Shown: positions 52,216 to 63,280 of the stretch, in pieces
Layout of the letters: each line of letters opens with the position of its first letter
How positions within the stretch are numbered: the first letter of the stretch is position 1
Assembly (NCBI RefSeq): GCF_013314975.1
Contig: NZ_JABTYH010000018.1
Span: 1 to 64,000, forward strand
DNA: 64,000 bases
Direction: 5' to 3'
Source of the DNA: Pseudarthrobacter oxydans
GTDB taxonomy: Bacteria > Actinomycetota > Actinomycetes > Actinomycetales > Micrococcaceae
The notes under the pieces: generated by a model
Database searches by the model: none
What the model was told of the DNA's origin: nothing
What the model saw: the letters and a program-made list of their open reading frames with translations, nothing else
Made by a program: the position numbers and the translations under genes

Positions 52216-52357
52216 CCTGCCAGTCTACGTTGAGGTATGGGCCGGAAAACCCGTGGGGACCGGTTTACTGCGCTCCGGGTGAACGCGATCGAATCGAACC
52301 GCAATAGTTGGGTGCGGGGTGGCACATGCGCGCAGGCTTGTAGGTGAAGGGGGAACC

Positions 52358-53224
52358 GTGATCTCGGCGCTCAACCAACTCGTCGATTACATCGACGGTC
52401 ACCTCACCGAGGAGATCGCCGTTGATGACCTGGCGGTCAGCCTCGGCATGACCGAGTACCACCTCCGCCGCATGTTCTCATCACTGGCCGGCATGCCGCT
52501 CTCCGAGTACGTCCGAAGGCGCCGCATGACGGTGGCGGCAACGGAGGTCCTCGACGGCGGCGAGCTGCTGGCAATCGCTGTGCGGTATGGCTACGGCTCT
52601 ACCGAAGCTTTCAGCCGGGCATTCCGGTCAGTTCACGGCGCCGGACCCGGCGACGTGCGCCGGGACGGCGGGCCCCTTCGCACGCAACCGCAGCTCAGGT
52701 TCCGCCTGACCGTAGAAGGGAACACCCCGATGGACACCCGCATCGCAGACCGGCCGGCATTCCGGCTCATCGGCCATCCGGCCCGTGTACCCCTTATCCA
52801 CCACGGTCCAAACCCGCACATCCAGGCGCACATCGCCTCACTGCCGGCAGCAGAGCACGACCGGCTCAAAGCACTGGGCAACACCGACCCCAGGGGCCTG
52901 CTCCAGGTGAGCGCCGACGTCGACCCGGACTACACGGAGGGCAGCGAGCTCACGTACCTCCATGGCGTGGCCGTAACCCCAACGACGCCGGCGCCCGGGG
53001 ATCTCGACGCGATCGAGGTCCCCGCGGGCACGTGGGCGGTCTTCCGCGCCGAAGGGGCGTACCCTGCGGTTCTGCAATCCACCTGGGCATCCACAGCCAC
53101 CGACTGGTTCCCGTCGAACCCGTGGCGGCTGCGCCCGGGCCCCTCGATGGTGGCAGTCCTGGATCGCAGCGCCGACTTCAGCACAGCAAGCTGCGAATTG
53201 TGGCTCCCGGTAGAACGTGCCTGA
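52358..53224 (+). CDS. AraC-family regulator with GyrI-like C-terminal domain
   Basis: It has 288 residues. Two helix-turn-helix motifs at the N-terminus (about 1-100): LAVSLGMTEYHLRRMFSSLAG and IAVRYGYGSTEAFSRAFRSV, both AraC-type. The C-terminal domain (about 125-288) is GyrI/SOUL-like and binds small ligands in related multidrug regulators such as Rob and BmrR. GTG 52358 is preferred, with AAGGGGGAACC upstream. The likely effector and targets are unknown; neighbours give no hint. Confidence 0.88.
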   Translation: MISALNQLVDYIDGHLTEEIAVDDLAVSLGMTEYHLRRMFSSLAGMPLSEYVRRRRMTVAATEVLDGGELLAIAVRYGYGSTEAFSRAFRSVHGAGPGDVRRDGGPLRTQPQLRFRLTVEGNTPMDTRIADRPAFRLIGHPARVPLIHHGPNPHIQAHIASLPAAEHDRLKALGNTDPRGLLQVSADVDPDYTEGSELTYLHGVAVTPTTPAPGDLDAIEVPAGTWAVFRAEGAYPAVLQSTWASTATDWFPSNPWRLRPGPSMVAVLDRSADFSTASCELWLPVERA

Positions 53225-53278: not shown

Positions 53279-54124
53279 TCACTTGGTGTCTTTGGCCGCT
53301 TCAGGGCCGGCCCGCCGGGACCTTCCGCCCAGCCGGGCGGTGACCTTCGCTGCGGCGCCGGCGCAGGCCTCCCCCAACGCCTGCAGCCTGTCTTGGGACA
53401 CCCGGAACCGGGGTGCGGGGATCAGGACGGCCGCCACCACCTCGCCCCGGTGGTCGAAGACGGGTGCCGCCAGCCCCACCTCATCAATGGAGGTTTCGCC
53501 GTAGTTGACGGCCCAGCCGCGCCGGATGTCGTCCTTGAGCCGGACCAGGTAGGCGTCCAGGCTGGAGTCATCCAGGCCCGGGTAGCTGATGGCCCCGCTG
53601 CTGAGCAGGGACCGGACCCGGGGTTCAGGTTCTTGGGCCAGGAAGACCTGCACCGAGGCGCTGAGGGCGTCGTTGTACCGTGCCCCCAGCGGGGTGGTGT
53701 GCTTAATCTGGTGGTGGCTGGCAATCTGCTCCACGCAGATGGATTCATCGCCGCTCCACACCATCAGTGCGCTTGTTTCGCCGGTCTGCTCCGAGAGCTC
53801 GCGGAGTACGGGATAGGCAACGCGGCGCTCCTCAAGCTCGGCGAGGAGCGGCCCGGCCACGGCAATCAGCCCCAGCCCGAGCCGGAACCGCCGCGTTTCG
53901 GCGTCCCGCTCCACCAGGTGCTCCTGCTCGAAGGTTGCCAGGATCCGAGAGACCGTGCTCTTGTGCAGCCCCACGCGGTTGGCGATCTCGGTGACGCCAA
54001 GCAGGGGCTCGTCCGCCGAGAATGTCCGGAGGACCGCAATCGCGTTGACGATGACGGAAGCGCCCTTGCTGTCGCCGTTGCCTGTGGTCTCGGATTCTGT
54101 TGCACTCATGGTGTTACCCATCAT
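53279..54124 (-). CDS. IclR-family transcription regulator
   Basis: Predicted regulator of creatine catabolism, 281 residues. The N-terminal winged helix has TEIANRVGLHKSTVSRILATF. The effector-binding domain from about residue 100 includes LGARYNDALSASVQVFLAQE and RRGWAVNYGETSIDEVGLAAPVF. Several ATGs lie at the start (54124, 54121, 54109); none has a clear ribosome-binding site, so the start is uncertain. It is 85 bp downstream of creatinase, with a hairpin between. GTTGC-based operators upstream of the MFS gene are the suggested targets. Confidence 0.9.
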   Translation of the reverse strand: MMGNTMSATESETTGNGDSKGASVIVNAIAVLRTFSADEPLLGVTEIANRVGLHKSTVSRILATFEQEHLVERDAETRRFRLGLGLIAVAGPLLAELEERRVAYPVLRELSEQTGETSALMVWSGDESICVEQIASHHQIKHTTPLGARYNDALSASVQVFLAQEPEPRVRSLLSSGAISYPGLDDSSLDAYLVRLKDDIRRGWAVNYGETSIDEVGLAAPVFDHRGEVVAAVLIPAPRFRVSQDRLQALGEACAGAAAKVTARLGGRSRRAGPEAAKDTK

Positions 54125-54209: not shown

Positions 54210-55463
54210 TTAGGCGCCGATGATGTTGTACTCGGGTCCGAACGGGAACTTGGTGATGTTCTCCGCGCCGTCCTCGCCCACCACCAGGATGTCGTGCTCG
54301 CGGTACCCGCCGGCACCCGGCTGGCCCTCGAGGACGGTGATCATCGGTTCCATGGAGACCACCATGCCCGGTTCCAGCACCGTGTCGATGTCCTCGCGGA
54401 GCTCGAGTCCGGCTTCGCGGCCGTAGTAGTGGCTCAGGACGCCGAACGAGTGGCCGTAGCCGAAGGTGCGGTTGGCCAGGAGCCCGTAGCCCACGTAGAT
54501 CTCGTTGAGCTCGGCGGCGATGTCCTTGCAGACGGCGCCGGGCTTGATGAGTTCCAGGCCGCGCTTGTGGACTTCCACGTTGATGTTCCACAGCTCCAGT
54601 GAGCGGGCATCCGGTTCACCGTAGAACAGGGTGCGCTCCAGCGCCGTGTAGTAGCCCGAGGTCATGGGGAAGCAGTTCAGGGACAGGATGTCGTGTTCCT
54701 GGATCTTGCGGGTGGTGGCCCAGTTGTGGGCGCCGTCGGTGTTGATGCCGGACTGGAACCACACCCAGGTGTCGCGGATTTCGGAGTCGGGGAAGGTCCT
54801 GGCGATTTCATGGACCATGGCCTCGGTGCCGATCAGGGCAACCTCGTACTCGGTGATCCCGGCGGTGATGGCGTTGCGGATAGCTTCGCCGCCGAGGTCG
54901 CCGATGCGTGCGCCGTGCTTGATGACCTCGATTTCCTCGGCGGACTTGATCATGCGCTGGCGCATGGCGGCCTGGGCCACGTCCACCAGGGTGGCGGACG
55001 GGAAGGCCGCCTGGATCTTGTTCCGGTTGTCCAGCGGCAGCGAGTCGTCCTCGACGCCGAGGCGGCGCGGGTTGATGCCGCGGGTCCGCAGGACTTCCTG
55101 GATGGCGAAGATGTAGTTGTCGCGGCGCCAGTCCGTGTAGACGATGTTGTCGCCGTAGCTGCGGCGCCAGGGCATTCCGGCGTCGATATTGGCGGTGACG
55201 GTGACGGTGTCATCCTTGGTGACCACCATGCCGTAGGAGCGGCCGAAGGTGGTGAAGAGGAAGTCTGAGTAGTACTTGATGGAGTGGTAGCTGGTGAGGA
55301 CGACGGCGTCCAGGTCCTTCTCGGCCATGATGCGGCGCAGGCCGGCCAGGCGGCGCTCAAACTCGGTGTCGGAGAACGTGAGGCTCACCTTCTCGCCGTT
55401 CTTGAGGATCTTGGTGCGCTCGAGTTCGGCGACAGTGGTGGCGTTTTCGGTGGTGATGGTCAT
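54210..55463 (-). CDS. Creatinase (creatine amidinohydrolase)
   Basis: Hydrolyses creatine to sarcosine and urea; an M24 (pita-bread) family enzyme without metal requirement. It has 417 residues. I recognise it by extensive agreement with Pseudomonas creatinase: SYHSIKYYSDFL, TANIDAGMPWRRS, YTDWRRDNY, WFQSGINTDGAHN (catalytic His about 246, equivalent to His232), SLNCFPMTSGYYTALERTLF, TFGYGHSFGVLSHYYGREAG and VLEPGMVVSMEPM. It lies between the MFS gene and iclR on one strand. A related Xaa-Pro-type peptidase is unlikely given this identity. Confidence 0.9.
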   Translation of the reverse strand: MTITTENATTVAELERTKILKNGEKVSLTFSDTEFERRLAGLRRIMAEKDLDAVVLTSYHSIKYYSDFLFTTFGRSYGMVVTKDDTVTVTANIDAGMPWRRSYGDNIVYTDWRRDNYIFAIQEVLRTRGINPRRLGVEDDSLPLDNRNKIQAAFPSATLVDVAQAAMRQRMIKSAEEIEVIKHGARIGDLGGEAIRNAITAGITEYEVALIGTEAMVHEIARTFPDSEIRDTWVWFQSGINTDGAHNWATTRKIQEHDILSLNCFPMTSGYYTALERTLFYGEPDARSLELWNINVEVHKRGLELIKPGAVCKDIAAELNEIYVGYGLLANRTFGYGHSFGVLSHYYGREAGLELREDIDTVLEPGMVVSMEPMITVLEGQPGAGGYREHDILVVGEDGAENITKFPFGPEYNIIGA

Positions 55464-55526: not shown

Positions 55527-56870
55527 CTATTCGTGCCGCAGGGGCTCTTTGCAGGTTTCCCTGGAGAGCGACACGGCAATGAGGGAGACGACGGCGGCAG
55601 CCACCAGGTACCAGGCCGGAGCCAGGTCGCTTGCGGTTGCGGCGATGAGGAGTGTCGCCATGAACGGGGCGGTGCCGCCGAACAGGGCGTTGGAGAGGTT
55701 GAAGCTGACCGCAAAGCCGCTGTAGCGCACCCGGGTGGGGAACATTTCCGCCAGGAAGCTGGGGAGTGTGCCGTCGTTGAGGGTGAGCATGGCGCCCAGC
55801 AGGATCTGGACCAGGACGATGACCAGGAAGTTGCCGGTGCCGAGCAGTGCGAAGGCGGGGACGGTCAGGACAATGAAGGCAACCGATGCGCTGATCAGCA
55901 CCTTCTTGCGCCCGTACCGGTCCGAGAGCATGCCGGTGAGGAAGATGAAGCCGATGTAGGTGATCAGCGCGATGGTGGTGGCAAGGAATGATTCGGTTTC
56001 GCCCAGGCCCAGTTCCGAGGACAGGTAGGTGGGCATGTAGCTGAGGATCACGTAGAAGCCGACGGCGTTGAGCAGCACGGCGCCGACGGCCTGCAGCAGC
56101 TGCCGCCAGTGGTTGCGGAAGAGGCTGGAGACAGGGGCCTTGACGGCGTGGTCCTCGGCGGCCAGTTCACGGAATACGGGGGTGTCCTCAAGCTTGGTCC
56201 GGATGTACCGGCCGATCAGGCCCATGGGGGCTGCCAGCAGGAAAGGCAGCCGCCAGCCCCAGCTCTGCATCGCCTCGGTGGAGAGAAGGGTGGTCAGCAG
56301 GCCGGCCATGAGTGAGCCCAGGAGCAGGCCGGCGGCGGTGCTCGCGGGGACGACTGCGGCGTACAGGCCACGCCGGTTGGCTGGGGCGTACTCCACCAGG
56401 AAGGCCGAGGCACCCGCGTATTCACCGGAGGCAGAGAAGCCCTGGACCACCCTGATGATCAGGAGCAGGACGGGCGCCCAGATGCCGATGGTGTCGTAGC
56501 CCGGAATCAGCGCTATGCAGAACGTGGCTCCGGACATGATGAGGATGGAGAGGGAGAGTGCTGTCCGCCGTCCCACCCTGTCGCCGATGTGGCCCCAGAC
56601 GAAGCCGCCGAGCGGGCGCACCAGGAAGGAGATGGCAAAAAGGGCGAAGGTCAGCAGCAGCCCGGTCTGCGGATCGGATTCCGGGAAGAAGACCGTTGCG
56701 ATAGTGACGGCCAGGTAGCCGTAGACGGCGTAGTCGAACCATTCAACGAAGTTGCCGATGAAGCTGGCAGCGATGACCCGGCGCCGCGTTTCCTTGCTGA
56801 CGGCACTGTCGGCAGGTGCGGGACGCGGGTCGCTCACGATGCTGCCCGGGGAGGAAGTTTCGTTACTCAT
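55527..56870 (-). CDS. MFS metabolite:H+ symporter (MHS type), probable creatine/betaine-like uptake
   Basis: It has 447 residues and 12 transmembrane helices. FIGNFVEWFDYAVYGYLA starts helix 1, GGFVWGHIGDRVGRRTAL is the MFS loop 2-3 motif, and FSASGEYAGASAFLVEYAP is typical of the proline/betaine/shikimate (MHS) branch. The substrate is inferred as creatine or a related N-methyl compound from its position before creatinase. ATG 56870 follows GGTGGA. The promoter (56920-56948) and operator lie directly upstream. Confidence 0.9.
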   Translation of the reverse strand: MSNETSSPGSIVSDPRPAPADSAVSKETRRRVIAASFIGNFVEWFDYAVYGYLAVTIATVFFPESDPQTGLLLTFALFAISFLVRPLGGFVWGHIGDRVGRRTALSLSILIMSGATFCIALIPGYDTIGIWAPVLLLIIRVVQGFSASGEYAGASAFLVEYAPANRRGLYAAVVPASTAAGLLLGSLMAGLLTTLLSTEAMQSWGWRLPFLLAAPMGLIGRYIRTKLEDTPVFRELAAEDHAVKAPVSSLFRNHWRQLLQAVGAVLLNAVGFYVILSYMPTYLSSELGLGETESFLATTIALITYIGFIFLTGMLSDRYGRKKVLISASVAFIVLTVPAFALLGTGNFLVIVLVQILLGAMLTLNDGTLPSFLAEMFPTRVRYSGFAVSFNLSNALFGGTAPFMATLLIAATASDLAPAWYLVAAAVVSLIAVSLSRETCKEPLRHE

Positions 56871-56890: not shown

Positions 56891-56918
56891 GTTGCATTCA
56901 GCGCAACGCTGTTGCAAC
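56891..56918. promoter_or_regulatory. Candidate IclR operator, site 1
   Basis: GTTGC-ATTCAGC-GCAAC-GCT-GTTGC, then AAC. The palindrome GTTGC-N7-GCAAC is followed by a direct GTTGC repeat 20 bp from the first. It overlaps the predicted transcription start of the MFS operon, which suggests repression. Confidence 0.6.
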
Positions 56919-56919
56919 A

Positions 56920-56948
56920 GACTAAGGCGTGATGGCCGCCACAGTCAA
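56920..56948 (-). promoter_or_regulatory. Predicted promoter of the MFS-creatinase-iclR operon
   Basis: On the minus strand TTGACT (56948-56943), a 17-bp spacer, then TTAGTC (56925-56920). The start point would be near 56913, inside operator site 1. Confidence 0.5.
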
Positions 56949-57058
56949 TGGTTTCGAGGCGGCGAATTACAGTTCCGGAAAAGGCCAATTTGAGGAGCGC
57001 CAAATCAACCCCAGCACTTGGGCCACACTTATGGGCTGGGGAGATTGAAACCCCAAGA

Positions 57059-57083
57059 GTTGCTTTGAATGCAATAGAGTTGC
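57059..57083. promoter_or_regulatory. Candidate IclR operator, site 2
   Basis: GTTGC-TTTGAAT-GCAAT-AGA-GTTGC: the same spacing as site 1 with different filler sequence. It lies about 60-90 bp upstream of the predicted plus-strand promoter, which would suit activation or looping. Confidence 0.55.
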
Positions 57084-57145: not shown

Positions 57146-57174
57146 TTGACACCCACTACGGCGACTGACATATT
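57146..57174 (+). promoter_or_regulatory. Predicted promoter of the formaldehyde/formate operon
   Basis: TTGACA (57146-57151), a 17-bp spacer, then CATATT (57169-57174). The leader to the ATG would be about 190 nt. A partial GTTGT-N7-GCAAT site follows at 57199-57215. Confidence 0.45.
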
Positions 57175-57369
57175 TCGAGTAAGCGCTATACGCACCGTGT
57201 TGTGCATTACGCAATTGGGGAGGCCCGGACGGAGGGTCGGGGAGGCACGACCACCCGTTCGGGTGCCTGCCACCCGTCCCTTTGGGTAGCCGTCCGGAAG
57301 CGTCGCAGCTTCTAGACTTGGGAGTCGGGCCGGGATCTTTGTCCGGCCAACGAAAGGAACACAGGAATC

Positions 57370-58455
57370 ATGGTTCATAAAGTCAAGGCAGTCATCGCCA
57401 AGGAAAAGAACGCTCCGGTGTCAGTGGAGACCATCCTGGTGCCGGATCCGGGCCCGGGCGAGGCCCTGGTGGACATCCTGACGTGCGGTGTCTGCCACAC
57501 GGACCTGCACTACAAGCAGGGCGCCATCAACGACGATTTCCCCTTCCTGCTGGGCCATGAAGCCACCGGTGTGGTCAGCGCTGTGGGTGACGGCGTTACC
57601 TCCGTCGCCCCCGGCGACCGCGTCATCCTGAACTGGCGCGCCGTGTGCGGTGAATGCCGCGCGTGCGCCAAGGGACAGCCCCAGTACTGTTTCAACACCG
57701 CCAACGCCACCCGGAAGATGACCCTGGAGGACGGCACGGAGCTCTCCCCCGCACTGGGGATCGGGGCCTTCGCCGAAAAAACCCTCGTCGCTGCGGGACA
57801 GTGCACCAAGGTGGATCCCGAGGCTGATGCGGCCGCCGTCGGCCTGCTGGGCTGCGGCATCATGGCCGGCATCGGCGCCGCCATCAACACCGGTGAGGTC
57901 AAGCGCGGCGAGTCCGTGGCGGTGATCGGCTGCGGCGGTGTGGGCATCGCCGCGATCGCCGGCGCCAAGCTCGCCGGCGCCACCACGATCATCGCCGTGG
58001 ACATCGACGCCAACAAGGTGGACATGGCCACATCCCTCGGCGCCACGCACGGCATCGACTCCAGCAAAGAGGACCCCGTCGAGGCCATCCGCGCCCTCAC
58101 CGGAGGCAACGGGGCGGACGTGGTGATTGACGCCGTCGGCCGTCCTGAAACGTACAAGCAGGCGTTCTACGCCCGCGACCTCGCCGGACGCGTGGTCCTG
58201 GTGGGCGTCCCGACGCCGGCCATGCAGCTTGAACTGCCGCTGCTGGACGTCTTCGGCCGCGGCGGCTCGCTCAAGTCCTCCTGGTACGGCGACTGCCTGC
58301 CCTCCCGCGACTTCCCCATGCTGGTGGCGCACTACAAGCAGGGCAACCTGGACCTGGACGCGTTCGTGACCGAACGGATCACCATCGACCAGGTGGAGGA
58401 AGCCTTCGACAAGATGCACGAGGGCAAGGTCCTGCGTTCGGTGGTGGAGCTCTAA
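57370..58455 (+). CDS. S-(hydroxymethyl)mycothiol dehydrogenase (mycothiol-dependent formaldehyde dehydrogenase)
   Basis: NAD-dependent zinc alcohol dehydrogenase that oxidises the formaldehyde-mycothiol adduct. It has 361 residues. Catalytic zinc ligands: Cys39 in TCGVCHTD and His63-Glu64 in GHEATG. Structural zinc Cys at 93, 96, 99 and 107 in [20 protein letters not shown], which is typical of the mycothiol form. The Rossmann motif GCGGVG is near 182-187. The ATG follows GAAAGGAA. It is fused by a 1-bp overlap (TAATG) to the MBL gene. Formaldehyde from sarcosine demethylation is the natural substrate source here. Confidence 0.92.
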
Positions 58456-59072
58456 TGGTCGCCATCGAGAACCTGGTCACCTCGGGGACATTTTCGCTCG
58501 ACGGCGGCACCTGGGACGTGGACAACAACGTCTGGATCGTAGGCAATGACGAGGAGTGCGTGATCATCGACTCCCCGCACGACGCCGCCGCGATCATCAA
58601 CCAGGTCCGCAGCCGGAAGGTCAAGGCCATCCTGCTCACGCATGCGCACAACGACCACATCGGTGCTGCCCGCGAGGTTGCCGACGCCGTGGGCGCCCCG
58701 ATCTACCTGAACCCCGAGGACCTGGTCCTCTGGGAACAGGTGTACCCGGACGCGCACCCGGACCGGGAACTGGCCGACGGCGACGTGTTCGAAGTGGGCG
58801 GTGCAACACTGAAGGCCATCCACACCCCCGGCCATTCCCCGGGCTCCACCTGCTTCTACCTGGAAAGCGAAGGAACGGTCTTCACCGGAGACACGATGTT
58901 CAACGGCGGCCCGGGTGCCACAGGACGGTCCTACAGCGACTACCCCACCATCCTGGCCTCCATCCGGGAACGCCTGCTCACCCTCCCGCCCGGGACTGTG
59001 GTCCGCACCGGCCACGGGGACAACACCACCATCGCGGCCGAAACGGAAACGCTGGCGAAGGTTTCGCAGTAG
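58455..59072 (+). CDS. MBL-fold hydrolase
   Basis: Metallo-beta-lactamase-fold enzyme of 205 residues. The metal site THAHNDHIG gives His63, His65, Asp67 and His68. Further ligands are His in HTPGHSPGS, Asp in FTGDTMF and His in RTGHGDN. It overlaps the mycothiol-dependent dehydrogenase gene by 1 bp. That constant partnership suggests a thioesterase step on S-formylmycothiol, giving formate and mycothiol (glyoxalase-II-like); this is inference. A GC-rich hairpin follows. Confidence 0.88.
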   Translation: MVAIENLVTSGTFSLDGGTWDVDNNVWIVGNDEECVIIDSPHDAAAIINQVRSRKVKAILLTHAHNDHIGAAREVADAVGAPIYLNPEDLVLWEQVYPDAHPDRELADGDVFEVGGATLKAIHTPGHSPGSTCFYLESEGTVFTGDTMFNGGPGATGRSYSDYPTILASIRERLLTLPPGTVVRTGHGDNTTIAAETETLAKVSQ

Positions 59073-59121: not shown

Positions 59122-59207
59122 TTCGCGGCGCCAGCGGCAACCGCGCCTTCGTGGCGCCCACGCAACACAGTACAAACACCACGCATGCCGGTAAGGAAGT
59201 TGGAACA

Positions 59208-61562
59208 ATGAAGTTCGGTAAGCAGCCCGCCCCCGTTGCGGACATTGACGAGGACAACCTCGAAGTCCATAAGCCCAAGGCCGAGGCGGCAGGCGTGAAG
59301 GCCGTGATGGTGGCGCTGGAACGCGCGGTGGCCCAGGCCGGGGTGGCCCGCACGGCGCACTCGCTGCTGCGGCTGAACCAGCGGGGCGGTTTCGACTGCC
59401 CGGGCTGCGCGTGGCCGGAGTCGGACAAGAAGCGCAAGACCGCCGAGTTCTGCGAGAACGGCGCCAAGGCGGTGGCCGAGGAAAACACCCTCCGCACCGT
59501 CGGTGCCGAGTTCTGGGCCAGGCATTCGATCGCCGAGCTCTCGACGAAGACCGAGTACTGGCTGGGCAACCAGGGCCGGCTGAGTGAACCCGTGGTGATC
59601 CGGGCAGGCGAGAGCCACTATTCACCGATCTCCTGGGGTGATGCCTTCGACCTGATCGGCGAGCATGTGCGGGCCACCACGGCCGACCGTTGCGTTTTCT
59701 ACACCTCCGGGCGCACCGCGAACGAGACGGCGTTTATGTACCAGCTGTTCGCTCGGGCTTTGGGCACCAACAACCTGCCGGACTGCTCCAACATGTGCCA
59801 CGAGTCCTCGGGTTCGGCTCTGAACCCGACCATCGGGATTGGCAAGGGGACCGTGTCCCTGGACGATATCCATGATTCCGAGCTGATCTTCGTGGTGGGG
59901 CAGAACCCCGGGACCAACCATCCGCGGATGCTGTCCGCGCTGAAGGAATGCAAGGACAAGGGCGGCAAAGTGGTGGCGGTCAACCCGCTGCCCGAGGCCG
60001 GGCTGTTCAACTTCAAGGACCCGCAGACCGTCTCCGGCGTGGTGGGCGGCGGCACGCCGCTTGCCGACGAATACCTGCAGATCAAGGTCGGCGGTGACCT
60101 GGCACTGTTCCAGGCCCTTGGCCACCTGCTCCTGGCGGAGGAAGAGCGGAACCCGGGCACCGTCGTCGACCATTCCTTCATCGAGGCGCAGACAGACGGG
60201 TTCGCCGCCTACCGCGAGGCCCGCGGCAGCCTGGACTGGGCCGAAACCGAGAAGGCCACCGGGCTGACCCGGGAGCAGATCGAGACCGTTGCCGGGATGC
60301 TCATCAAGTCCAAGGCCACCATCTTCTGCTGGGCCCTGGGCGTCACCCAGCAGCCGCACTCGGTGGACACCATCAAGGAGATGGTCAACGTCCTGCTGCT
60401 GCAGGGCAACTTCGGCAAGCCCGGAGCCGGCGCCTGCCCGGTCCGCGGGCACTCCAACGTCCAGGGCGACCGCACCATGGGCATCTGGGAAAAACCCAAG
60501 GAATGGCTGCTGGAGGCGCTGGACACCGAGTTCGGGATCACCTCACCCCGGCACCACGGGTATGACGCCGTGGAAGCGATGGAGGCGTTCGAACGCAACG
60601 AGGTGGACGTTTTTGTGTCCATGGGCGGCAACTTCTCCCTGGCCTGCTCCGACACCGAGACCCTGGAAGCCGGCATGCAGCGGATCGGCCTGACCGTGCA
60701 CATCTCCACCAAGCCCAACCGCTCCCACATCGTCCACGGGCGCACCTCGCTGATCCTGCCCACCCTGGGCCGGACGGACAAGGACGACAAGCACCCCAAC
60801 GGCGCACAGTTCCTCTCCGTGGAGGACTCGATGTCCGTGGTCCACTCCACCCAGGGCAGGCTCACGCCGGTCTCCGAGCACCTGCTCGCCGAACCCGTCA
60901 TCGTGGCACGGATGGCCGAGGCCGCGTTCGGCCCGGACCACCCCGTGGACTGGAAAGCCATGGCCGAGGACTACGACGTGATCCGCGACCACATCGCCCG
61001 CGTGCTGCCCGGCTTCGAAGACTTCAACGCCAGGATCCGGACCAAGAACGGGTTCGTCCTGCCCAACCCGCCGCGCGATACCCGGTCCTTCAAAACCGAC
61101 ATCGGCCGGGGCCGGTTCACCGTGAGCCCGCTGGAATACCTCACCCCGCCCGACGGGCACCTGGTGCTCCAGACCATCCGCAGCCACGACCAGTACAACA
61201 CCACCTTCTACGGCCAGGACGACCGCTACCGTGGCATCTCCAGCGGCCGCCGGGTGATCCTGGTGCACCCCGAGGACCTGGTGGAGCTGGGCTTCAAGGA
61301 CCGGGACCTGGTGGACGTGGTCAGCACCTTCCGCGGCCACGACCGGCAGGCCGACAAGTTCCGCCTGATCGCCTACCCCACCGCCAAGGGTTGTGCCGCC
61401 GCGTACTTCCCCGAAGCCAACGCCCTGGTCCACAAGGAAAACGTGGCCCGCGAATCCAACACCCCCGGCTTCAAAGCCATGTTCGTCCGGTTCGTGCCGC
61501 ACCTCGCGGAAACCACCGACCAGGATTCTTCCGGGCAACTGGAGCCTGCCACGGCGGGATAG
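59208..61562 (+). CDS. FdhF/YdeP-family molybdopterin oxidoreductase (formate dehydrogenase-like)
   Basis: It has 784 residues and is cytosolic, with no Tat signal. The N-terminal Cys pair GFDCPGCAWPE (Cys64, Cys67) and a later Cys (FCENG) may bind a [4Fe-4S] cluster. The molybdopterin domains carry CVFYTSGRTANE, the CSNMCHESSG segment (Cys193, Cys197) and VGQNPGTNHPRML. The C-terminal molydopterin-dinucleotide-binding domain is around IRSHDQYNTTFYG. Formate oxidation is inferred from its place after formaldehyde dehydrogenase. YdeP-type proteins have unproven substrates, so this is a moderate claim. TAAGGAAG lies upstream of ATG 59208. Confidence 0.85.
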   Translation: MKFGKQPAPVADIDEDNLEVHKPKAEAAGVKAVMVALERAVAQAGVARTAHSLLRLNQRGGFDCPGCAWPESDKKRKTAEFCENGAKAVAEENTLRTVGAEFWARHSIAELSTKTEYWLGNQGRLSEPVVIRAGESHYSPISWGDAFDLIGEHVRATTADRCVFYTSGRTANETAFMYQLFARALGTNNLPDCSNMCHESSGSALNPTIGIGKGTVSLDDIHDSELIFVVGQNPGTNHPRMLSALKECKDKGGKVVAVNPLPEAGLFNFKDPQTVSGVVGGGTPLADEYLQIKVGGDLALFQALGHLLLAEEERNPGTVVDHSFIEAQTDGFAAYREARGSLDWAETEKATGLTREQIETVAGMLIKSKATIFCWALGVTQQPHSVDTIKEMVNVLLLQGNFGKPGAGACPVRGHSNVQGDRTMGIWEKPKEWLLEALDTEFGITSPRHHGYDAVEAMEAFERNEVDVFVSMGGNFSLACSDTETLEAGMQRIGLTVHISTKPNRSHIVHGRTSLILPTLGRTDKDDKHPNGAQFLSVEDSMSVVHSTQGRLTPVSEHLLAEPVIVARMAEAAFGPDHPVDWKAMAEDYDVIRDHIARVLPGFEDFNARIRTKNGFVLPNPPRDTRSFKTDIGRGRFTVSPLEYLTPPDGHLVLQTIRSHDQYNTTFYGQDDRYRGISSGRRVILVHPEDLVELGFKDRDLVDVVSTFRGHDRQADKFRLIAYPTAKGCAAAYFPEANALVHKENVARESNTPGFKAMFVRFVPHLAETTDQDSSGQLEPATAG

Positions 61563-61662: not shown

Positions 61663-63160
61663 TCACGCGCGGACGCGGAGGAAGCGCTCCAAGGCGTCCT
61701 CTCCCGGCGACTGGGCAGTGTGCAGGAAATCCGCCGTACCTAGCTTCAGCTGGCTCGGCCAGTGGGGTGGTTCCCAGTCCTGGTGTTCGCTTTTGTAGTG
61801 GCGACCGGTGGGTGAGGTCCAGCCGGGTGGTTGGTTTTTGGTGGCTGGTGTTGGTTTCCAGCCGCTGGTGTGCCGGAGTTTGTGGTGTTTCGGGCAGGGC
61901 TGTCCCAGGTTGCTGATCCCGGTGGTCCCGCCGTGGTGCCAGGCGACGAGGTGGTCTGCCTCGTTGTCGAGGGAGTTGTTGCTGCAGCCGGGGAAGGGGC
62001 ATTTGCCGTCCCTCAGCCTGAGCCAATTCCGCATGGCCTTGGTGACCCGGTAGCTGGTGCGCCCAATTTCCAGTGGTGCCCCGTCCCGCGGGTCGACCAG
62101 GACGCGGTGAAAGGAGTCTGCTCCGTGTGCAACCAGGTTTCGTGCCATGGACGGCGGAACGGGGCCGAACCCGTCCAGCACCGCCGGCTCCTCCGTGAGG
62201 CCCATCAACGAGAACACCGGCACGGTGACCAGGACCTGGGCCCGGATCCCCGGGGAAAGCAGGCCAGCACCGGTTCCTGCACCGGCTCCGTCGCTGTCGC
62301 TTGCTTCCTCGCCGTTACCTGCACTGTTGTCTGCATGGAAGGTTGCACTGGTTCCGCTGGTGAGGATGGCTTCGGCGAATTTGTCGGTCCGGAGTTGGGT
62401 GAGGGTGCGGGGTTCGTTGGGTCCTTGTGCGGCCCGCGCGAGGGCGTTAAGGCGGTTCCAGCCTGCCATGGCCTGGTCGGCGGGGAGGCAGGCCGAGAGC
62501 CAGGCCATGCCGTCCTGGTCCGGCCGGTATTCCACGCGCCGTTCAGCAACCCCCTTGGCATGGCGCTTTTCAATGGATTCGGCGTGGTGGCGGTTCACGC
62601 CAGGTCCGGGCTTTGTGCCGGAGCCGGTGCGCCGGCATTTCGCCGATTGCTGCGGCGGTGGGCGGTTTAGGGACGGACGGGTCGAGGAAGTGGGCTTCCA
62701 AGGCGACGACCCCGGCCGGGTCCAGGGTTGCGGCCTCGTCAACCATGACCAGGGCGTGCTGCCAGGAGATCGTCCCGGACTGCAATGCCGATAACGTCCG
62801 CGGCAACTCCTTGGTCAGCGCGTGGGATACGGACAGGAACGTACCCGCTGCCCGGTGTCCGAGAGCCAAAAGGCAGCCGATTTCCGCCGCGACAGCCATC
62901 TCCTGCGCCTGCACCGGCATATCCGGCGCTATGGCTTGGGCGCTGTCCGCATACTTCACGGCAGCACGGGCCTTCAGGCCTGCGAAACCGGCCTCCACCT
63001 CCCGCACCCCGGCAAGGATGTCCAGGCTCCCCTCCGCCAGCCCGGCCAACGGATCGGCAGCAGAGAACGGCTCCGAACCACACCCGTCCACCTCAGCGTT
63101 GAGCACGGCAAGGGCGGCCCTGATATCCGCAAACGCCCTCGCCACCGCTTCGCTGCCCAT
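61663..63160 (-). pseudogene. DUF222/HNH endonuclease, frameshifted
   Basis: The first frame (63160 to about 62592) encodes a DUF222 N-terminus beginning MGSEAVARAFADIRAAL and ending AHRLRHKARTWRE. The next frame, to the stop at 61663, continues RHHAESIEKRHAKGVAERR and ends with an HNH motif: CPFPGCSNNSLDNEADHLVA, then WHHGG and CPKHHKLRH. Deleting one G from plus-strand GG at 62592-62593 restores a continuous protein of about 498 residues. Members of this family occur in many copies in actinobacteria and may be linked to mobile elements. Sequencing error cannot be ruled out. Confidence 0.88.
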
Positions 63161-63217
63161 AAACCCATCCTGCCAAGGGGGTCCGACAATAAGCCGGGAA
63201 CCGGGCCGGCACACGAA

Positions 63218-63252
63218 AAACCGGGGGCCGCCTGTTCGGCGGCCCCCGGTTT
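63218..63252 (-). terminator. Intrinsic terminator of the GcvT-domain gene
   Basis: A perfect 15-bp stem (63218-63232 with 63238-63252), a 5-nt loop and, on the minus strand, a TTTTT run. It lies 29 bp after the stop at 63281. Confidence 0.85.
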
Positions 63253-63280
63253 CCGATGACAAGTACGGACAGGTTCCGGG

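Follow-up and report, generated by a model that had tools for sequence, protein, structure and literature searches.

To which protein, and to which promoter, does a pair of identically built 25-bp patterns belong when it lies between a creatine operon and a divergent gene unit? The question is raised by the window considered here, i.e., the whole analysed stretch of 64,000 nucleotides, in which a sequence-only reading had pointed to two copies of GTTGC-N7-GCAAY-N3-GTTGC, at 56891 (site 1) and 57059 (site 2), and had taken them for operators of the IclR-family protein encoded at 53279. The main text of a family survey (PMC8222616; Suvorova and Gelfand, 2021) states that tetramer binding is possible for IclR proteins and predicts three-box operators in 32 orthologous groups. 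For PcaU, PobR and HmgR it gives an external direct half-site as reported (PcaU binding needs it), and it leaves 'alternative dimerization' as possible for three-box sites; this main text contains neither 'creatin' nor 'Arthrobacter'.

Other regulators have been connected with creatine genes. As far as the available text of PMC8864220 goes, creatine genes of Corynebacterium glutamicum are under the control of AmtR, which, in a likeness to the present locus, controls a putative MFS transporter gene in an operon with a creatininase gene; AmtR, however, is a TetR-family nitrogen regulator with another operator, and 'IclR' is absent from that text. The LysR-type SoxR reported for Arthrobacter sp. 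TE1826 (cited in PMC4941409, in the text available) is, like the putative repressor here, a negative regulator in a creatinine/sarcosine cluster, but both the protein family and the gene cluster differ from those of the window's IclR. Literature searches on IclR with creatinase and on creatine regulation in Arthrobacter returned no report of this regulon among the matches listed. Three-box control by IclR proteins is already known; the proposed creatine regulon, with its unusual second site, would be a new case of it.

Genomes and loci compared

A scan of named genomes with the window's IclR protein yielded 66 loci. The genus sample comprised 198 genomes, 168 with an IclR match at E 1e-40 or better and 30 without one (hereafter IclR-free), 10 of these 30 being assigned by elimination. 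In other genera 95 genomes gave a match, from which 18 loci, mostly the best-scoring, were taken; two of them, L239 and L240, are the same DNA as L091 and L093, respectively. As the named loci overlap with the genus and other-genus genomes, the samples are not independent.

Gene content of the locus

The window derives from a 4,689,826-base genome (4.69 Mb) and carries on the minus strand, to the left of the sites, an operon encoding an MFS transporter, a creatinase and the IclR protein, with gaps of 63 and 85 bp between the genes (Table 1). Site 1 had been described as overlapping the start of this operon. It does cover the predicted transcription start, but the transporter most likely begins at ATG 56870, outside the site, and not at the in-frame ATG 56897 within it, because ATG 56870, a GGTGGA-like ribosome-binding site and the first transporter codons are kept in 12 aligned sequences; with this start codon, site 1 falls within promoter and leader, 21-45 bp upstream of it. 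An AraC-type gene (52319-53224) adjoins the operon; among the loci compared, its only matches are in L003 (the locus of the window itself), L004 and L096.

The regulator contains IclR-family domains scoring above gathering (PF09339, HTH_IclR, 52.9 vs. 22; PF01614, IclR_C, 82.1 vs. 24). The layout of the sites had been likened to that of PcaU/PobR-type regulators, and the combination of a palindrome with an external direct half-site is indeed that given for the PcaU/PobR activators of Acinetobacter in the survey text (PMC8222616). The likeness does not extend further: PcaU and PobR act on aromatic catabolism, whereas the window's protein misses the TIGR02431 (PcaR/PcaU/PobR) cut-off (88.9 vs. 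284.75 bits) and site 1, overlapping the predicted transcription start, is placed like a repressor site. The best NCBIfam match, NF045644 (BhcR), also remained below its cut-off (119.7 vs. 350 bits), and membership of either the PcaU/PobR or the BhcR group was rejected on these curated thresholds. Residues 97-269 match the solved effector domain of a near relative in the IclR family, PDB 3obf (E 5.6e-82), whose 176-residue chain corresponds to the effector part only.

Table 1. Genes, promoter elements and candidate sites of the creatine locus, in window coordinates.
Feature	Position	Strand	Remark
IclR-family regulator, last operon gene, proposed binder	53279..54124	-	domain matches; co-occurrence
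Creatinase (creatine amidinohydrolase)	54210..55463	-	best solved relative 1chm (E 6.3e-172); Creatinase_N + Peptidase_M24
MFS transporter, 447 aa, probable creatine uptake	55527..56870	-	function inferred from context
Site 1 (main operator, putative), GTTGC-N7-GCAAC-N3-GTTGC, GTTGCATTCAGCGCAACGCTGTTGC	56891..56915	+	predicted creatine-operon transcript, about +22 to -3
-10 box TAGTCT, creatine operon promoter	56919..56924	-	site 1 starts 3 bp downstream
-35 box TTGACT, creatine operon promoter, spacer 18	56943..56948	-	box conserved across loci
Site 2 (auxiliary operator, putative), GTTGCTTTGAATGCAATAGAGTTGC	57059..57083	+	168 bp from site 1, start to start
mscR promoter TTGACA-17-CATATT	57146..57174	+	87 bp downstream of site 2 start
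Palindrome ('third copy'), GTTGTGCATTACGCAAT	57199..57215	+	predicted mscR transcript, about +18 to +34
mscR, S-(hydroxymethyl)mycothiol dehydrogenase, divergent unit gene 1	57370..58455	+	TIGR03451, 671.2 bits (cut-off 512.9)
MBL-fold hydrolase, divergent unit gene 2	58455..59072	+	profile matches
FdhF/YdeP-family molybdopterin oxidoreductase, divergent unit gene 3, start provisional	59151..61562	+	TIGR01701, 910.6 bits (cut-off 582.15)

An exact site pair and the creatine promoter

Both copies are in place, identically spaced and free of mismatches. The genome-wide search that had been suggested for the 25-bp pattern returned exactly two matches to GTTGC-N7-GCAAY-N3-GTTGC, both at this locus, and none to the reversed pattern, a simple base-composition estimate being 0.0145 exact matches per genome. 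When up to two mismatches are allowed, shuffling gives an expectation of 0.36 matches for the window, a count of two being reached in 5 of 100 shuffles. Like the three-box operators of the survey text (PMC8222616), the site consists of three half-sites in alternating direction, one pair with the wide group 1 and the other with the narrow group 2 spacing; compared by eye with the three-box consensus, site 1 agrees at 14 of 17 group 1 and 10 of 14 group 2 positions. It differs from the sites in that text in its half-site (GTTGC here, GTTYC/GTYCG there), as well as in the occurrence of two three-box sites, mostly 131-168 bp apart, many copies of site 2 having lost the middle box.

Site 1 was exact in 61 of the 66 named loci; the contigs of L071 and L074 end before it, and L091, L093 and L094 carry it with a one-base variant in box 3. 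On the operon's strand it is flanked by boxes of the form TTGACN and TANTCT, the window promoter being TTGACT-18-TAGTCT at 56948-56919. Across the 61 loci, AGANTA (the reverse of TANTCT) follows site 1 at 3-4 bp in 59, and at 26-28 bp there is (A/C)GTCAA in 54 and GGTCAA in the other seven. Transcription starts are predicted at about 56912 for the creatine operon and about 57181 for mscR. Coverage of the predicted transcription start is a repressor-type position and, because site 1 overlies this start, the protein bound there is taken to repress.

Co-occurrence with the IclR gene

The exact motif was present in 141 of the 168 genomes with an IclR match and in none of the 30 IclR-free genomes (Fisher p 5e-20, computed without correction for relatedness), while the reversed pattern gave nine matches in the 198 genomes. 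Among the 27 IclR-match genomes lacking the exact motif, 21 carry a pair of one-mismatch sites separated by 144-147 bp and three (G071, G075, G188) have one such site near the IclR gene; no one-mismatch site was found near that gene in G049, G121 and G159, the IclR matches of the first two being weak (E about 1e-67 and 1e-66). With one mismatch allowed, scattered single matches appear in IclR-free genomes and controls, and a pair 144-147 bp apart was found in none of the IclR-free genomes.

Outside the genus, 18 of 18 loci, with IclR proteins 61-78% identical, have a site scoring 21-44 bits in front of the transporter or the creatinase. The motif is thus conserved upstream of orthologous regulons, a check that had been proposed for it, and this conservation, together with the confinement of the exact form to IclR-match genomes, favours the earlier assignment of the sites to the IclR protein encoded at 53279. 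Creatinase and transporter each have their own site where the two are split (L249, L250, L093 and L094, the last two with a second site further on), as do, in L091, the creatinase and a BCCT-like transporter with a creatininase-like gene (names by eye). The third-best match in L091 reaches only 2.1 bits, so the creatinase there has no site pair; a strong second site was also lacking in L241, L244 and L254. Judged from these arrangements, the putative operator module travels with the creatine genes. The loci vary in other respects: L242, L243, L244 and L248 have a second creatinase gene about 1.1-1.2 kb beyond the transporter start, creatinase and iclR are separated by about 0.8-1 kb in L091, L093 and L094, and in L091 the creatininase-like and BCCT-like genes lie between the creatinase and glyA-sox.

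Conservation and neighbours of site 2

With the site-1 matrix, a site 2 of positive score is obtained in 58 of 61 loci (at 131-168 bp from site 1 in 54) and one of at least 10 bits in 49; a score of 10 bits or more was reached at none of 1.84 million flanking positions (prefiltered on GT). Its score exceeds that of the opposite strand in 58 of the 61 loci (the reverse being true of L066, L070 and L078) and the highest among 50 shuffles in 55, falling short of the latter in L035, L043, L046, L062, L066 and L078. The 20 mscR loci conserve boxes 1 and 3, which carry 1.9 and 2.0 bits per column, and vary in box 2 (0.96) and in the flanks (0.2), while eight loci of another clade keep boxes 2 and 3, with a GGYRC-like box 1. 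Since the positions of site 2 come from a matrix or direct-repeat search, the invariance of the outer boxes is partly built in, and better support is provided by the narrow location, the strand, and the shuffle and flank scans. This box comparison, made by groups, covers 51 of the 61 loci; the group labelled 'no divergent gene' includes L099, which fell outside the ORF-filter run, and overlapping ORFs on the plus strand are present in L049 and L098 as well.

The neighbour of site 2 is mscR, glyA-sox (L044, L051, L065, L090) or betA (L053, L056, L068, L092), and in 12 loci the nearest ORF passing a codon-composition filter is convergent. A further clade of 16 loci keeps the pair at 144-147 bp, the nearest filtered ORF being convergent in seven, divergent in seven and ambiguous in two (L259, L260); these stretches gave no match to mscR, glyA, soxB or betA. 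Pfam returned nothing for one of the divergent proteins, and a convergent one is a 4Fe-4S protein. Site 2 is retained in these convergent settings although spacer identity is near the random level (median 0.49).

In 24 loci (20 mscR, four betA) site 2 lies 80-91 bp before TTGACA (mean 86.8, sd 1.9), the intervening sequence not being conserved; the distance between sites 1 and 2 has an sd of 20 in these loci, or 10.2 without L092, which has about 90 bp extra between the sites. At the four glyA-sox loci, a perfect or one-mismatch site 2 overlaps the glyA -10 region by eye. Among 16 mscR loci without a nearby transporter match (L124 aside), seven have the mscR promoter and the palindrome without site 2, and the other nine have none of the three. 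The window genome's own glyA-sox operon carries no site (best score -0.4 in 9 kb searched) and was rejected as a further target.

Distance between the sites

Distances between sites 1 and 2 gather at 131-147, 154-157 and 163-168 bp, with 186, a few outliers and none at 148-153; the 131-147 bp spread covers more than one helical turn, so the pair is not strictly phased. For all 58 loci, R(10.5) was 0.29 (95% of jittered copies below 0.24), and the distinct values were not significant. After a clustering that collapsed to four groups (76 of 79 loci in one, 10 of 89 loci dropped), p was 0.16-0.46. Reclustering (84 of 86 loci) brought p to 0.005 or below, the best period being near 11.0-11.3, with shared ancestry still included. 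Given these mixed results strict phasing is not established, and helical phasing of the pair is suggestive only. In loop-forming pairs of the lac/gal type, two operators at a helix-phased distance serve one promoter through one bivalent protein, and removal of the far site leads to loss of repression. Looping is the preferred, and a plausible, link between sites 1 and 2.

The palindrome at 57199

A third, partial copy had been counted at 57199. The sequence is there, but its inclusion in the set is not supported, since the palindrome also occurs at seven mscR loci without a nearby transporter match and in 7 of the 30 IclR-free genomes; the candidate third copy was rejected accordingly. The palindrome class occurs once in the window's own genome and, at that distance after TTGACA, in 87 of the 198 genus genomes (two matches for the reversed control). 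Five of the seven IclR-free cases are at mscR-type promoters and two are of the ferredoxin-reductase type; among these genomes mscR was located for G005 only, the palindrome match there beginning 209 bp ahead of the gene. Palindromes of this class also precede betA and a ferredoxin-reductase-like gene (L194, L202; named by eye). Those at mscR, betA and the ferredoxin-reductase genes look like a C1/betaine regulon of another regulator, and the 57199 palindrome is probably an operator of such a regulator of betaine/C1 genes. In L194 and L202, from position 1500 on, the palindrome after TTGACA is directly followed by a second one (GTTGCATTCGTGCAAC in L202).

Regulatory model and alternative explanations

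Because the sites are kept, and usually paired, beside the creatine operon in relatives, they are very probably docking sites of the operon's IclR. The fuller reading, in which site 1 is the repressing operator of the operon's own IclR and site 2 an auxiliary one, probably joined to it by a loop, is the one we consider likely. We infer binding, repression, induction, looping and any effect on mscR from the comparisons above, as follows. IclR bound at site 1, just downstream of the -10 box, would block its own operon's promoter; a putative inducer, creatine or a creatine product, would release it. Site 2, mostly about 12-16 helical turns upstream, would reinforce the control exerted at site 1, with a bivalent IclR tetramer probably holding both sites and looping out some 130-170 bp. 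At loci with a pathway-related divergent promoter nearby (mscR, betA, glyA-sox), site 2 could touch that promoter too.

Three alternatives concern the binder or the number of sites. Short boxes, and the fact that two-copy families are often due to chance, might suggest a fortuitous pair or a mobile repeat, to which we give practically no credence in view of the expected 0.0145 matches per genome, of nine reversed-control matches in 198 genomes as against 141 genomes with the motif and of flanks that are unlike both between sites and between loci; the conservation of the sites already contradicts it. Co-occurrence cannot separate IclR from any gene travelling with the operon, and another conserved regulator might therefore bind the sites; we regard this as improbable, the layout being that described for IclR proteins and IclR staying with the creatinase gene in the other-genus loci examined, while the neighbouring AraC-type gene was rejected as the binder, given that it was matched in three loci only. 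Hardly better are the prospects of a three-site intergenic array in which the same IclR would also use 57199 as an operator. The alike half-sites (GTTGY/GCAAY), the single occurrence of the class in the genome and its steady place 137-144 bp after site 2 across loci would fit such an array, but the 57199 palindrome has no third box, and its class recurs without a nearby transporter match, in IclR-free genomes, and before betA and the ferredoxin-reductase-like gene.

A more serious competitor, though still one we hold to be rather unlikely, would have site 2 serve the divergent unit as its operator (at mscR in the window, at glyA-sox or betA in other loci), one IclR coordinating creatine hydrolysis with the disposal of sarcosine-derived formaldehyde. 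It draws on the nearly fixed distance to TTGACA across non-conserved sequence, on the overlap with the glyA -10 region, and on the partners there, which belong to C1, choline or sarcosine metabolism. Against it, site 2 is kept in the 12 loci with a convergent neighbour, the 16-locus clade keeps the pair without a match to any of the expected partner genes, seven of the 16 mscR loci without a nearby transporter match have promoter and palindrome without site 2, and the genome's own glyA-sox operon has no site. As site 2 is kept with changing or convergent neighbours, the divergent unit alone cannot explain it, and this role was dropped as a general explanation; the steady 86.8-bp distance and the glyA -10 overlap nevertheless make a second role at the neighbour possible. 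The earlier proposal that one protein controls both divergent units is thus not supported as the general reason for the pair and survives as a possibility beside mscR. We regard site 2 as auxiliary to the main operator at the creatine promoter, not simply as the operator of the divergent unit.

A narrower version of the auxiliary-operator reading is offered tentatively, with a degree of belief slightly below that given to the divergent-unit operator: an IclR tetramer would loop the full three-box site at the transcription start to a distant site that often has only the outer, same-direction boxes. If so, a direct repeat two helical turns apart, and not a palindrome, would be the minimal IclR site, and the pair would have persisted while neighbouring operons replaced one another. 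The frequent retention of the outer boxes but not the middle one makes site 2 a naturally occurring test of how IclR proteins read three-box sites. The locus also offers a testable regulator for creatine breakdown in common soil bacteria, with a defined operator and the solved effector domain of a near relative, and it advises caution in crediting two divergent units with a common operator, as the neighbour changes and the pair stays.

Other features of the window

The mscR leader (about 190 nt) contains, within 57216-57369, G+C-rich, hairpin-like stretches conserved in eight aligned sequences, with both sides changed in two of 41 predicted pairs; no Rfam family matched at gathering score within the window, and an RNA family reading was rejected. 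At 61663-63262 there are two overlapping minus-strand ORFs in different frames, one without a Pfam match and the downstream one matching DUF222 at positions 141-306 of 306, which may together represent a frameshifted DUF222 gene.
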